Source: Chloracidobacterium validum
GTDB taxonomy: Bacteria > Acidobacteriota > Blastocatellia > Chloracidobacteriales > Chloracidobacteriaceae
DNA: 64,000 nucleotides
Reading direction: 5' to 3'
NCBI RefSeq assembly: GCF_018304825.1
Contig: NZ_CP072648.1
Location: 107,501-171,500 of the forward strand
Positions 48,698 through 55,205 of this stretch are shown here, piece after piece (the first letter of the stretch is position 1; every line of letters begins with the position of its first letter). The notes beneath the pieces were generated by a model. The model ran no database searches. It worked only from the letters and a program-made list of their open reading frames with translations, and was not told where the DNA came from. The position numbers and the translations under genes were made by a program.

Positions 48698-49486
48698 ATG
48701 TTCGACACGATGGTTGAATCCACTTCGCAAGTCAAAGATGCTGGTCGGCGCTCGGCCTTTATGGCTGTAACTTTCGTCATCTGGGTCGTTGGCTTTACCG
48801 GCCTAGTCATTTGGCAGGTTTGGACGGCGGCGGCTGAGTTGAGCCAATCTGCCAATGATGTCACCCTGCTCGCCCCGCCACCGCCACCACCGCCGCCGCC
48901 ACCACCACCACCGGCCGCGACGACATCGGTGCCGCAGACCAAAGCGCCGGTCGTGGATGACACGTTTACGGCACCAAAGGAAGTGCCGAAGGAAATCAAG
49001 GAAATTCCCAAGCAGGCGCAACTTCGCTCACGGGTTGGTGATGCCAGCAGCAGTGATGCGGCTGGGATGGTTGGTGGTGTCCCAGGTGGTGTGCCGGGTG
49101 GTGTGCCGGGTGGTGTGCCGGGTGGTGTGCCGGGGAGCACTGGCGAGGCTGCCCCGCCACCGCCGCCAGACCCCCCGAAGGATGCTCAGGTGCCAACTGG
49201 CCCCGTACGCAAGAGTGAAGGGGTTCTCAAGGGGAATGCCATCAACCGTGTCCAACCCGATTATCCTCCGGTTGCCAAGTCGGCCCGGATTCAGGGCGCA
49301 GTGGTGGTTGAAATCGTCATAGACGAGAAGGGAAATGTCACGAGCGCACGTGCTGTGAGCGGCCCGGCCCTCCTACAGCAAGCGGCCGTCAGCGCTGCGC
49401 GCCGGTGGACATTCAAACCAACGGTTCTCAACGGTCAGCCAGTGAAAGTGGCCGGAGCGATTACATTCAACTTTGTACTCAACTAA
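48698..49486 (+). CDS. tonB: TonB family protein
   Basis: A 262-residue energy-coupling protein. It has an N-terminal TM helix (about residues 20-43), a run of 13 prolines (about 60-72), a charged segment, GGVPGGVP repeats, and a C-terminal TonB domain (INRVQPDYPPVAKSARIQG, VVVEIVIDEKGNVTSARAVSG, ARRWTFKPT). It transmits proton-motive force to outer-membrane receptors together with ExbB/ExbD. A gagg site precedes the ATG. Confidence 0.95.
   Translation: MFDTMVESTSQVKDAGRRSAFMAVTFVIWVVGFTGLVIWQVWTAAAELSQSANDVTLLAPPPPPPPPPPPPPAATTSVPQTKAPVVDDTFTAPKEVPKEIKEIPKQAQLRSRVGDASSSDAAGMVGGVPGGVPGGVPGGVPGGVPGSTGEAAPPPPPDPPKDAQVPTGPVRKSEGVLKGNAINRVQPDYPPVAKSARIQGAVVVEIVIDEKGNVTSARAVSGPALLQQAAVSAARRWTFKPTVLNGQPVKVAGAITFNFVLN
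49073..49132 (+). repeat. 12-bp tandem repeat in tonB
   Basis: Five units of ggtggtgtgccg (first one ggtggtgtccca) run from 49073 to 49132 and encode GGVP repeats in the periplasm-spanning linker. Four units are identical. Confidence 0.97.
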
Positions 49487-52231: not shown

Positions 52232-52269
52232 GCACTTGCTTTGGCGCTACGTGGCGGTTTAGATCGTCG

Positions 52270-52307
52270 TTGACCGTAGCTACTACTGGCTACGGTCAAT
52301 CTTTTTC
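52270..52307 (+). terminator. Rho-independent terminator of the tonB-exb operon
   Basis: ttgaccgtagc (52270-52280) pairs with gctacggtcaa (52289-52299), a perfect 11-bp stem with an 8-nt loop, followed by tcttttt. It separates the tonB-exb-TPR operon from the E1-like gene. Confidence 0.93.
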
Positions 52308-52381: not shown

Positions 52382-53614
52382 ATGGAATCGTTCTTTGATC
52401 GGCAAGAACGTCTCGGTTGGTGGCGGCAGGATGTGCTTCGGTCAGCTCGTATTCTGGTAGTTGGCGCTGGCGCACTGGGTAATGAAACGCTCAAAAATTT
52501 GGCGTTGCTTGGCGCACGCTGGATGCTGGTTGTTGACCACGATGACATTGCGCCTTCCAACCTCAGTCGGACTGTGTTTTTTCAGCCAACTGACATCGGC
52601 CGTCGCAAGGCGGTGGTTGCTGCGGAGCGGACGCAGGCACTTTGCCGTGAAACATCGAGCACCGTCCGTGCGCTTGATGCTGACTTCGTTTGGGATATTG
52701 GGCTGGGCGTCTTTCGGCGACTTGACCTCATCCTGGGTTGCGTGGACAACGATGAGGCGCGGCTAGCCATCAATCGCGTAGCGCGCGCGGCTGGCGTGCC
52801 ATGGATTAACGCTGGACTCTATGAGCTGACCGGGAGTGTGACTGCTTTCTCGTCGGATGAGGGGCCATGCTTTGAGTGCACGATAACACCGGATCAGGTG
52901 GCCGATGCTCAGTCGCGTTATGATTCCTGTGAGCAGGTGCGCCGCCGCTACTTGATCGAAGAACGCTTGCCGACCATTCAGGTAACATCGGCACTGACAT
53001 CGGCGCTGCAAGTTCAGGAAGCGCTCAAAGTCCTGCATGGTGAGCCGGTCGCCTTTGGGGTTCGGCTTATCTATAACGGTCAAACCCACGGTTTTCATGC
53101 CATCCAACTACCCTATGATCCACACTGTTTAGCGCATGGTCGCCTTGGGGAAGTCGTTGAGCTACCAATTGGCGTGGACGCCTCGCTGGGGCAAGCCCTA
53201 GACGTGCTCGAGGCGCAGCTTGGTAGTGGTGTGACGGTACATCTCGGTCGGCGCTACATCCGCCGCCTCGCTTGTCGTCAGTGTAGTCGCCCGCTCACGG
53301 TTGAGCGGCCGGCCCATGCCCTTTACGAGGATGAGCTGAGATGTACATATTGTTCACCCTTAGCCTCTTTGGCGACCCAGGCGACCCTCCCAAGCCACGC
53401 TGTCACCGAAGGCTATATTGAAGTCGTGACTCAATTTTCACGAGCCCGATTTGGAGATGCACCCATGACGTGCGAAGATGAAAAGCGAACGTTGCGTCAG
53501 CTTGGGTTGCCGCCGTTGCATATCATGAGTGTGGAAGATCGCCATGGGCGTAGCTGGTCGTGTGAGCTGACTGGCGATCTGGCGCTCGTCCTTGGTGACT
53601 GGGGGATGGCATGA
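52382..53614 (+). CDS. E1-like ThiF/UBA-family adenylating enzyme with extra zinc modules
   Basis: A 410-residue protein. The nucleotide-binding Rossmann fold (VVGAGALGNETLKNLALLG), DHDDIAPSNLSR and GRRKA, then the CVDNDEARLAINR segment, are the adenylation signature. The crossover region has CFEC (Cys163/166) followed by DSC (Cys183), in the place of the catalytic Cys of eukaryotic UBA3-type E1s. The helix TSALTSALQVQEALKVLHG follows. Two more CxxC pairs (Cys298/301, Cys321/324) lie toward the C-terminus, more than the usual zinc ligands. It begins a separate unit after a terminator. The ATG at 52382 is chosen; a TTG at 52364 is possible. It probably adenylates the Ubl encoded at 54084. MoeB/ThiF-type sulfur transfer is the alternative. 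Confidence 0.88.
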   Translation: MESFFDRQERLGWWRQDVLRSARILVVGAGALGNETLKNLALLGARWMLVVDHDDIAPSNLSRTVFFQPTDIGRRKAVVAAERTQALCRETSSTVRALDADFVWDIGLGVFRRLDLILGCVDNDEARLAINRVARAAGVPWINAGLYELTGSVTAFSSDEGPCFECTITPDQVADAQSRYDSCEQVRRRYLIEERLPTIQVTSALTSALQVQEALKVLHGEPVAFGVRLIYNGQTHGFHAIQLPYDPHCLAHGRLGEVVELPIGVDASLGQALDVLEAQLGSGVTVHLGRRYIRRLACRQCSRPLTVERPAHALYEDELRCTYCSPLASLATQATLPSHAVTEGYIEVVTQFSRARFGDAPMTCEDEKRTLRQLGLPPLHIMSVEDRHGRSWSCELTGDLALVLGDWGMA

Positions 53615-53727
53615 GACCACACCACCGCACTGGGCGGATGAGCCGCTAACGTACCAGTCTTTGAGCGTTTTTTTGAATATGATAAGGCAGCTTAGTCAAA
53701 TTTCGGCTGAGGAAGGGGGCGAGCTTT

Positions 53728-54048
53728 ATGGAAGGTGTGGCGGTTATGGGTTCGCTCCTATTCATGCTGATTTTGATTGTGTCTTGTGGTTTTGAATTCT
53801 ATGAGCTCTACCTAGGGCGTCGGGAGCAGGAAGAGCGCGGTCGCTCTAGTGAGAGCTTGCTGTTCCCGCGTCGCTATTATGCTGACCTGCATCGGCGTAA
53901 TTATGAAGCCCCCCTTCCACTTGATACGGGCAGCACATTTTTGGTCAAGCGCTCGGAGCGACCAGTCCGGTGCGAAGTGTGTCACCAGGATGATTGCTTT
54001 GAGATAAACACCGGACGTTGTGCCCGCTGCGACCATTACACCCTGTAA
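53728..54048 (+). CDS. Small membrane protein with C-terminal zinc ribbon
   Basis: A 106-residue protein with an N-terminal TM helix (about residues 7-29, GSLLFMLILIVSCGFEFYEL). A basic/acidic linker follows, then a zinc-ribbon C-terminus with Cys82/Cys85 and Cys98/Cys101 plus Cys90. No family is recognised. gaagggggc upstream of the ATG is a strong ribosome site. It lies between the E1-like and Ubl genes, so it may be the membrane partner or target. The 113-bp spacer before it has no gene. Confidence 0.75.
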   Translation: MEGVAVMGSLLFMLILIVSCGFEFYELYLGRREQEERGRSSESLLFPRRYYADLHRRNYEAPLPLDTGSTFLVKRSERPVRCEVCHQDDCFEINTGRCARCDHYTL

Positions 54049-54083
54049 TCTCACGTTACAAATTAGGAGTCGAGGTTGTTCCC

Positions 54084-54362
54084 ATGTCGGATGTTGACAT
54101 TACCTTTCGCAATGAAAACAACGGGAAGGAAGTGGAAGTCACAGTTTCTGACGACATGACCGCAGACGCCATCTTGCGAAACCTTGTTGAAGCAGGTGTG
54201 ATCCCGAACATACCGGGCACGACGCTGGTATTTCGGAATATACAGCTACGTCCCGGTCAAACATTGGCTCAGGCTGGCGTTGTTTCTGGGGATGTAGTTG
54301 GGATTTTTCTCAATACACGCGGCGGGCAGAAGCTGTTTTCGCTATCCAGGGCGCTTGTTTAG
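54084..54362 (+). CDS. Ubiquitin-like (beta-grasp) protein with internal diglycine
   Basis: A 92-residue protein with a beta-grasp sequence pattern: EVEVTVSDDMTADAILRNLV (beta2-alpha1), TTLVFRNIQLRPGQTLAQAG and VSGDVVGIFLNTRGG (last strand). The TRGG at residues 78-81 falls where ubiquitin ends LRLRGG, but 11 residues (QKLFSLSRALV) follow, as in ubiquitin precursors. Similar to EsaB/YukD-type Ubls in the fold. gagg 9 bases upstream decides the ATG at 54084. It is the last gene of the E1 unit, 11 bp before the convergent DICT gene. Ubl assignment is by pattern; function is inferred. Confidence 0.8.
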   Translation: MSDVDITFRNENNGKEVEVTVSDDMTADAILRNLVEAGVIPNIPGTTLVFRNIQLRPGQTLAQAGVVSGDVVGIFLNTRGGQKLFSLSRALV

Positions 54363-54373
54363 GGCAATCGCCT

Positions 54374-54979
54374 TTACTGCACAGCCACCGCCGGGTCGGC
54401 TTGCGGTAGCACACGTAGCTCCTGCCGGATGTAATGCTCTTGGATGCTATTGCGAATAGCATCAATATACTCATCCCGATAAGTCCAAAATCCTTCGAAA
54501 CGCCGCCTTCCATTGGTGTGTCCATTTTTGCCTGGAACTATCGGGGGTGGTCCCGGGTGCGGCCGCTCGCGGGCGAACAAGGCAATGCGGAATCGCGGGT
54601 CATCGCTCAGGACGATCCAGTAATCCCGGCACGCTTGGTCAGCGGGGCGGAAAAACTGGACGCTGTCAGCCAAAAAGGGTGGTAGGACGTCTGGCTCACC
54701 AATAATCCAGACGTCTTTTGAAGTTTTGGCAACGGCTGCGTAGCGCTCTTGCTGCGGTATGAACAGCGAAAGCTTCTGAAACGATGCAATAAATAGCCCA
54801 GAGAGCCGTTTTTCGATGAAGCGGTCTTCAATGTAGTGTGAAATACTGAGCATCAGTGAAAAGTTGAGCGTCCGAAACGTATCAGTCTCGGTAACCGGTA
54901 ACCCTCCCCCATTCTGCTCCGCGCGCGCATCGAGGTGGTTTACAATGTTGTCGAATGTTGTGGCGATGGGTGCTGACAT
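54374..54979 (-). CDS. DICT sensory-domain protein
   Basis: A 201-residue protein made mainly of a DICT (diguanylate cyclase/two-component-associated) domain: ISHYIEDRFIEKRLSGLFIA, then FQKLSLFIPQQERYAAVAK, DVWIIGEPD and WIVLSDDPRFRIALFARE. The C-terminus RRRFEGFWTYRDEYIDAI is typical. No output domain is attached. The ATG at 54979 has a gggag site. It may work with separate signalling partners. Confidence 0.82.
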   Translation of the reverse strand: MSAPIATTFDNIVNHLDARAEQNGGGLPVTETDTFRTLNFSLMLSISHYIEDRFIEKRLSGLFIASFQKLSLFIPQQERYAAVAKTSKDVWIIGEPDVLPPFLADSVQFFRPADQACRDYWIVLSDDPRFRIALFARERPHPGPPPIVPGKNGHTNGRRRFEGFWTYRDEYIDAIRNSIQEHYIRQELRVLPQADPAVAVQ

Positions 54980-55205
54980 GGCGAAACTCCCATGGCAACC
55001 GCGCCCCCATCGGCGACCGGCGGGATAGGCTGCCGGGGACGTAACTCGTCGGAGCAAGCTTGGCATCTGCGACGGTTAAGTTTATTTTCGTACACTTTTC
55101 GATACAACACAACCCCTGTTCGTCAAAAAGTGTGCTTTTCTTCACGTTAGTATGATCGAGGGTGTGATCAAGGCTGGTGCCTAGTTGCCGAATCATGCAA
55201 AAGGC

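Follow-up and report, generated by a model that had tools for sequence, protein, structure and literature searches.

The stretch of DNA analysed here, hereafter the window, comprises 64,000 nucleotides of Chloracidobacterium validum (NCBI RefSeq assembly GCF_018304825.1, contig NZ_CP072648.1, positions 107,501 to 171,500 of the forward strand), whose genome (G000 in our numbering) totals 3.66 Mb on two contigs. At 52382–54362 the window carries three same-strand genes that a preliminary description had read as an E1-type adenylating enzyme, a small transmembrane (TM) zinc-ribbon protein, and a ubiquitin-like protein, and the open reading frame (ORF) calls, together with Pfam, bear out this reading. 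We refer to the three products as E1, ZnR, and Ubl:

52382..53614, plus strand: E1, 410 amino acids (aa), with its ATG at 52382; one ThiF adenylation domain followed by a C-terminal domain predicted to be a ubiquitin-fold domain (UFD), from Pfam and a structural model.
53728..54048, plus strand: ZnR, 106 aa; predicted single-pass membrane zinc-ribbon protein, predicted to face the cytoplasm, from the ORF call, hydropathy, and alignment.
54084..54362, plus strand: Ubl, 92 aa; a single ubiquitin-like domain, from Pfam and a family profile.

In the scan, the closest named relative is a Chloracidobacterium metagenome-assembled genome, whose E1 is 80% identical. A search of 58 genomes returned strong E1 orthologues in the window genome and 12 others (six of the same genus, two of the same family, and four from a second family in the order), as well as weaker ones in three other members of the class (G015, G017, and G041). 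The order E1-ZnR-Ubl, on whose conservation the preliminary description had made its proposal depend, is kept in 12 of the 12 related genomes that have a strong E1 orthologue, so chance is excluded as an explanation for the trio. One of these genomes (G010) has two ZnR genes in tandem, with a four-base overlap between E1 and the first ZnR that speaks for an operon. A fragmented genome of the window's family (G008) was considered as a case without E1 and discounted: its Ubl and a partial ZnR stand where a contig of 3,122 bp ends, and the E1 was therefore probably cut off.

No E2 and no JAB protease lies beside the trio, as had been noted earlier, and E1 plus Ubl had been weighed as a minimal set. 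The absence is a local one: it breaks down genome-wide, and in most sister-family genomes it does not hold even next to the trio. Using profiles made from the sister-family genes, we found one E2 and one JAB in each of the 14 genomes of the order, including that of the window:

G000:C1:699122-699655, minus strand: E2, 0.54 Mb from the trio.
G000:C1:1391780-1392415, plus strand: JAB, 1.23 Mb from the trio.

The presence of both genes elsewhere in the genome rules out E1 plus Ubl as the complete set, and leaves the pathway genes of the window genome in three chromosomal places. The JAB scores above the Pfam thresholds for both PF01398 and PF14464; for the E2, the match to UQ_con (6e-5) stays below the cut-off. 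The active-site motifs are intact, with the E2 cysteine and the JAMM motif HTHPGFGVFMSGTD present in 14/14 genomes of the order. Three of the four sister-family genomes (L039, L040, and L042) hold E1-ZnR-Ubl-E2-JAB together, with E2 and JAB 1.9 kb apart in L042; the fourth (L041) reads E1-ZnR-ZnR-Ubl-E2, with JAB on another contig. Because the five genes lie together in three of these four genomes, the window system is the five-gene pathway of the sister family, broken up on the chromosome. The neighbours of E2 and JAB, all named by eye, suggest that the break-up proceeded stepwise: in G007 and G009, JAB and E2 are neighbours and adjoin a ubiE-like gene; G008 has a row of E2, JAB, and an rnd-like gene; and in G000 the E2 lies beside the ubiE-like gene and the JAB beside the rnd-like gene, far apart. 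We therefore regard it as likely that the trio supplies the activating half of a full Ubl conjugation pathway forming part of the order's core genome, conjugation itself being what we infer from the parts.

The same association extends beyond the order. Among 72 loci with a family E1 outside it, scanned with profiles iterated on the same loci, a Ubl is found in 64, an E2 in 62, a JAB in 60, and all three in 59, with ZnR in none; at a locus length of 12 kb or more, 38/43 contain all of Ubl, E2, and JAB. Three loci from Flexibacter, Bernardetia, and Cytophagales (L053, L054, and L055) have family E1s and no Ubl, E2, or JAB recognised in the locus DNA, two of them spanning 10 kb on each side. The pairwise-identity matrices of the five genes correlate at r 0.90–0.97, as expected from vertical inheritance, and the correlation is therefore no proof of interaction on its own. 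Identity to the window within the genus is 0.86–0.94 for Ubl, 0.87–0.91 for E2, and 0.76–0.80 for E1, and at order depth (G011) it is 0.80, 0.64, and 0.49, respectively, so that Ubl and E2 are the most constrained members in the genus and Ubl at order depth; many synonymous distances are saturated.

How the E1 is distributed bears on whether the genes could instead form a scattered immune system of the Bil, Bub, or CBASS type that tags phage or effector proteins. At E 1e-40, the E1 is found in 11 of the 247 genomes of a phylum sample, five of them in the order and six among the 242 drawn from outside it: the family is patchy outside the order and fixed inside. The patchiness is what an anti-phage role would lead one to expect, the PADLOC matches of the E1 are to the E1-E2 and BilD models (1.7e-14 and 5.7e-8), and bacterial Ubl operons are described, in the sections available of one report (PMC12687455), as mainly anti-phage. 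We nonetheless judge a defence function unlikely: E2, JAB, and Ubl occur in 14/14 genomes of the order, the genes lie in three scattered places rather than in an island, and no defence gene was recognised by eye beside the trio, the E2, or the JAB, neighbours that were not scanned with PADLOC. Phage protection is not shown for Bub operons either, to judge from part of the account in PMC13373217. Also at odds with defence is the conserved setting of the genus, ExbD-TPR-trio-DICT-rpsA, in which ExbD and TPR are present at 6/6 loci and DICT and rpsA at 5/6, the sixth locus ending near the DICT/rpsA position. The two borders of the trio in the window, a terminator upstream and a convergent DICT gene downstream, are both found as they had been described earlier:

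52269..52300, plus strand: terminator-like hairpin 3' of the upstream TPR gene, with 14 pairs and a T-run.
54374..55066, minus strand: stand-alone DICT-domain gene, convergent with the trio (Pfam, E 1e-9).

The terminator scan as a whole gave three sites versus 2.8 ± 1.6 in shuffles, i.e., no excess. Farther upstream, at 48698–49486, lies a gene that by eye looks TonB-like; it contains long proline and VPGG-type repeats, and a long ORF that overlaps it in another frame (48855–49322) looks like a coding artefact of these repeats.

The E1 matches Pfam ThiF at 3e-44. A structural model of the protein, built from 81 aligned E1s of the family, has a mean predicted local distance difference test (pLDDT) score of 91.5, with a dip at residues 180–200, and residue conservation was read from the same E1s:

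52868..52879, plus strand: Cys163 and Cys166, first half of a presumed structural zinc site, invariant in 81/81 E1s.
52928..52930, plus strand: Cys183, candidate thioester cysteine in the crossover-loop region, invariant in 81/81 and within the pLDDT dip.
53126..53137, plus strand: Cys249, invariant, and His252, conserved at 90% or more, which complete the presumed zinc site.
53147..53611, plus strand: UFD, residues 256–410, by predicted fold.
53273..53353, plus strand: zinc ribbon (CxxC...CxxC) inside the UFD, with Cys298, Cys301, and Cys321 invariant and Cys324 at 90% or more.

We take the Cys163/Cys166/Cys249-His252 site to bind zinc from the layout of MoeB and UBA5. Cys183 sits where MoeB-type enzymes have their catalytic cysteine, and on account of this place it is our candidate for, and most likely, the thioester site of the E1. 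Only about 30 residues separate Cys166 from the helix at residue 200, and there is one ThiF domain in the 410 aa; the enzyme has neither a separate catalytic-cysteine domain, for which there is no room, nor a second ThiF domain. Residues 1–255 match MoeB, ThiF, and eukaryotic E1s, the closest fold being MoeB (Z 30.5), while the alignments to UBA1, UBA2 (9dqb), UBA3 (2nvu), UBA6, and UBA7 extend to residues 398–401.

The C-terminal 155 residues, predicted alone, gave a model with a pLDDT of 90.5. Its 31 best rows are all UFDs of eukaryotic E1s (UBA2, UBA3, and UBA1), followed by ISG15 and later Hub1; the best Z is 9.2, to UBA3 (3fn1), over 84 aligned residues at 2.7 Å. These Z values come from a second look at Foldseek's matches, and nine of the ten best Foldseek hits are UFD-bearing E1 chains. 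Five observations count against this assignment: a Z of 9.2 is only somewhat above the 7–8 that the tool typically returns as its best for models without a clear match; Foldseek alone is weak on the domain, at E 0.13; the sequence profile of the UFD matches no E1 in the PDB; Pfam yields only zinc ribbons and chance matches on it; and the whole-E1 alignments that span the UFD have root-mean-square deviations of 4–9 Å. The assignment thus depends on the predicted fold, since neither PDB sequences nor Pfam provide a match, and given what the tool returns in unclear cases, it is carried more by the consistency of the rows than by the Z value. With this proviso, the computed fold points to a UFD with an inserted zinc ribbon as the C-terminal domain of the E1, in keeping with the eukaryote-like layout that had been suggested from the sequence. 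The UFD is the E2-recruiting part of eukaryotic E1s.

An E1 whose core has the size of MoeB and ThiF, whose fold is closest to MoeB, and whose candidate cysteine stands at the MoeB-type position might activate the Ubl solely as a sulfur carrier, that is, as a thiocarboxylate donor for a cofactor or a tRNA base in the manner of MoeB/MoaD, ThiF/ThiS, or Uba4/Urm1. Such a carrier pathway needs neither an E2 nor a UFD, and here the pathway includes an E2 and, by predicted fold, the UFD to recruit it. The E1 is far below the NCBIfam equivalog cut-offs, with 113 of 275 bits for ThiF and 83 of 266 bits for MoeB, and a Pfam scan finds no rhodanese domain. In a midpoint-rooted tree of ThiF domains, it groups with the 80 other E1s of the family, and these 81 are set apart from a comparison set of 16 other E1-like proteins, not individually named, with a support of 0.958; rooting on the 16 instead divides the tree 15 versus 82, which leaves one comparison protein without a firm place. 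The firm clustering with MoeB or ThiF that would have pointed to a known cofactor pathway is thus not seen with the MoeB/ThiF-like proteins included. The genome, moreover, has five ThiS-family matches of its own, of which one is borderline and another shares its ORF with an E1-like domain. All told, we consider a pure sulfur-carrier role very improbable. Separately, we observed a 488-aa ORF in the region G000:C2:900441-901466 (L220) that combines an E1-like domain with a ThiS-family match in frame, possibly a fusion of carrier and E1; comparable long frames containing a ThiS match are present in G001, G005, G007, G009, and G010.

The Ubl of the window matches the Pfam families YukD (9e-5) and Rad60-SLD (1e-4), both just below the curated cut-offs, and ubiquitin (0.02). 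A profile of 34 aligned Ubls, chosen out of 64 single-domain Ubl ORFs of the family, matches ubiquitin in the PDB at E ~1e-6 for single copies and far lower for polyubiquitins, which places the protein in the ubiquitin family by sequence profile and answers the earlier concern that it might fold as something else. Its C-terminus has a computed Gly-Gly border:

54318..54326, plus strand: Arg-Gly-Gly, predicted mature C-terminus, with Gly81 invariant in 34/34 Ubls.
54327..54359, plus strand: 11-residue non-conserved tail after the Gly-Gly, predicted to be removed.

The residue before Gly81 is Gly in ten and Ala in 24 of the 34, and what follows it is 0–21 residues long and unrelated among them. 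The Ubls of the order read FLNTRGG in 13 aligned genomes and in G008, and three stop exactly there. Among the 64 single-domain ORFs, L072, which is cut by a contig end, and L120 have no [AG]G near the end, and the Ubl of L092 passes the loose [AG]G test only through an internal GGG. The TRGG followed by a free tail resembles what is found in processed pro-ubiquitins: in Caldiarchaeum, according to parts of the report (PMC5654768), a JAMM protease removes the tail after the Gly-Gly, and the uncut form is not activated. By analogy, the window Ubl may be a processed modifier.

A non-covalent function is the remaining reading of this protein, with the Ubl serving a secretion or membrane complex and the E1 being vestigial. 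YukD/EsaB proteins serve type VII secretion, and YukD is the best Pfam family of the Ubl, matched by 31/34 aligned members. We give this reading hardly any credence: the Gly-Gly border is conserved while the tails are free; E1, E2, and JAB are all intact and co-conserved; and by eye no type VII gene was recognised near the trio, the genome as a whole not having been searched for one.

The conjugation pathway we favour may also have a membrane component. No Pfam family matches the ZnR, in which three elements can be located:

53737..53793, plus strand: predicted TM helix, residues 4–22, with a mean hydropathy of 2.53 and basic residues after it.
53938..53949, plus strand: motif F-L-V-K, residues 71–74, just before the ribbon, from a motif search.
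53971..54030, plus strand: ribbon core CEVCHQ...CARC, with Cys82, Cys85, Cys98, and Cys101, from the alignment.

By the positive-inside rule, the ribbon, whose conserved pattern is RCExCHQxD...C.RC, is predicted to face the cytoplasm. The ZnR position is taken by a RING protein in some relatives, and in the order genomes no Prok-RING_1 (PF14446) match exceeds the cut-off in any of the 14, with weak matches in four (E 0.018–0.096). Two properties of the ZnR speak against our reading of the pathway: it is the least conserved member, with an identity of 0.58–0.65 in three genomes of the genus, and it has a single four-cysteine ribbon instead of a RING cross-brace with eight zinc ligands. Because the ribbon is not a cross-brace, an E3-like role of the ZnR is a guess from gene position. 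A lysine in the ribbon was considered as an acceptor site and rejected, as the 14 aligned proteins share no conserved lysine there. Compared with solved structures, the ribbon has one match, at a non-meaningful E of 0.34.

The ribbon is not confined to the ZnR. A ZnR profile matched 17 of 147 genomes of the class, namely the 14 of the order and, weakly, three others (E 1e-4 to 8e-4), and at E 1e-11 the ribbon is found in 5/247 phylum genomes, all of the order; judged by sequence, the ribbon is an order-specific domain. There are two matches in each of the seven genomes of the genus, four in G010, 12–17 in G012, G008, and G013, and at least 33 each in G007, G009, and G011. Thirty-seven ribbon ORFs occur in the 19 best-hit regions; in 36 the ribbon lies close to the N-terminus, and a strongly hydrophobic stretch of 19 residues is likewise present in 36. 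The ribbon is C-terminal in an AhpC/TSA-like protein, and two ORFs appear by eye to contain ankyrin-like repeats, which Pfam confirms in the one scanned. The expanded form, RCE[IV]CHQxD, is often arranged in tandem arrays (loci L201–L218, in G007, G009, G011, and other genomes of the order), and eight proteins of this expanded family gave no Pfam match to the ribbon. The second ribbon protein of the window genome, of 260 aa and with a hydrophobic C-terminal part, is at L199:3134-3916 (G000:C1:1806633-1807415).

A short motif, F-x-[IV]-[KR], is shared by ZnR, E2, and JAB. In its strict form, it is present in 14/14 E2 tails (the HTF/QTF copy) and again at the C-terminal end of the E2 in 12/14, where the other two read FQRR and FRLR; it is found at the N-terminus of the JAB in 14/14 and before the ZnR ribbon in 10/10 genomes of the window's family. 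For background, two strict motifs, one of them FGVR in the E1, occur in the 18,285 residues of 46 window ORFs that do not overlap and are at least 150 aa long, and 0/46 carry the motif in the terminal 12 residues at either end. The 41 listed ribbon copies, at least two of which look like a chance frame and a fragment, have the looser hydrophobic motif in 38 cases and the strict one in 13. The E2 tails of a sister subclade (Bacteroidetes, Cyanobacteria, and others) contain 20 F.[IVM] versus 2.5 expected in 14 tails from 13 loci; L070 gave two tails, L067 and L120 were omitted for having no anchor, four loci have no E2 within the stretch of DNA analysed, and E2/JAB double hits were excluded.

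Several points tell against our reading here. The motif was noticed after the fact. Its strict form is present in 0/5 ZnRs of the sister family, where Gln or Asn comes after F.[IV] instead. When E2 ends and JAB flanks were compared for generic similarity in 22 non-redundant clusters, 1/22 reached p<=0.05, which equals chance and lends no support to the matched-motif idea as a general feature of such clusters. Ribbon proteins and pathway, finally, have the same range because both belong to one clade, which amounts to a single evolutionary event. For the E2 and JAB sequences of the order we accept the motif as real, and the membrane-linked modification system envisaged in the preliminary description is plausible, with the shared motif and the expansion of the ribbon lending it some weight.

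Taken together, these components allow us to sketch how the pathway may operate; every reaction, the docking partner, the part played by the ZnR, and the targets are what we infer: (i) The JAB metalloprotease would trim the tail of pro-Ubl and expose the TRGG. (ii) An E1 homodimer would adenylate the C-terminus of the Ubl in the ThiF domain and then form a thioester, most likely at Cys183. (iii) The predicted UFD of the E1 would dock the separately encoded E2, and the Ubl would pass to the cysteine of the E2 loop HPHVWPDGK[IV]C. (iv) The membrane-anchored ZnR may replace the RING or E3-like protein and bring the loaded E2 to targets at the inner membrane, a role that many other ribbon-bearing membrane proteins may share in large-genome relatives. 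(v) The tag could be removed by the JAB as well. The F-x-[IV]-[KR] motif may act in this scheme as a docking strand common to E2, JAB, and ZnR, through which all three are brought together on a single partner, either the Ubl or the E1.

A broader proposal, which we put forward tentatively and with more doubt than confidence, is that the order has turned a mobile Ubl operon into a permanent, scattered, housekeeping network for the tagging of membrane proteins. A minimal E1, with adenylation domain and UFD and no cysteine domain, would feed the E2, and a previously undescribed module of docking strand plus ribbon, carried by the ZnR and in some genomes by tens of membrane proteins, would provide adaptors or self-tagging substrates that couple E2 and JAB to the inner membrane via one F-x-[IV]-[KR] strand. 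Known bacterial Ubl pathways have been described mostly as mobile, defence-type cassettes; the system described here, being present in every genome of the order examined, with a conserved chromosomal setting and a strongly constrained modifier, may be a rare bacterial case in which Ubl tagging belongs to normal cell physiology. Both the ribbon module and the motif supply named, testable candidates for the adaptors or substrates of a membrane Ubl system. In its build, the E1 could plausibly bridge MoeB/ThiF and eukaryotic E1s as a structural intermediate, which allows a direct test of what arose first among its parts.

By its parts list and by homology, this is a bacterial ubiquitin-like conjugation system. 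A literature search, with one paper covered in part, returned nothing on ubiquitin in Chloracidobacterium. As far as the available portions of the reports go, the bacterial E1/E2/Ubl/JAB operons (Iyer et al. 2006, PMC1779556) and the Bub and Bil systems (PMC13373217, PMC12687455, PMC11354881) have in common with it a Ubl, an E1, an E2, a JAB, metal-binding accessory proteins, and gene clusters. Unlike them, the window system has a single-domain Ubl with TRGG and a free tail, an E1 with a predicted UFD and no fused E2 or JAB, a TM ribbon protein, and genes that are dispersed and fixed in one order; the window genome has the other parts by which bacterial E1+E2+Ubl+JAB systems are recognised and does not hold them in one cluster. 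Bil, as outlined in part of PMC11354881, has a two-domain, ISG15-like BilA and an E1 with inactive and active domains, and the window system departs from it in two features, its single-domain 92-aa Ubl and its one ThiF domain. With the cascade of Caldiarchaeum subterraneum, going by the same parts of PMC5654768, it shares a pro-ubiquitin tail cut by a JAMM protease, a C-terminal UBL domain in the E1, an E2, and a small zinc E3-like protein; the Caldiarchaeum E1 model has active and inactive Rossmann domains and a cysteine domain, whereas the window E1 has one adenylation domain and a ribbon in its UFD, and the RING of the former contrasts with the membrane-anchored ribbon of the latter.

Nearer relatives are the Prok-RING_1/VWA-type clusters of G017 and G041, which have the same E1 family, a tandem YukD-like Ubl, E2, and JAB; they encode a VWA protein with a RING-like C-terminus where the order genomes have ZnR instead. 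A larger cluster in G015 (L045, 7977–13704) contains an ORF that by eye seems to fuse TIR and Ubl, a Ubl-E2-like ORF, and a JAB; its E1 has the same C-terminal layout, and the cluster resembles a defence-type version of the pathway. Among eukaryotic enzymes, UBA5 is a small E1 that is not known to have a separate cysteine domain or a UFD, and its ThiF core matches that of the window E1. UBA2, UBA3, and UBA1, like the window E1, continue from a ThiF adenylation fold into a UFD, and the window E1 differs from them in that its chain has no catalytic-cysteine domain, a single ThiF domain, and a UFD that contains a zinc ribbon. The system is thus of a known kind and differs from it in the dispersal of its genes, the build of its E1, its membrane ribbon, and its fixation.

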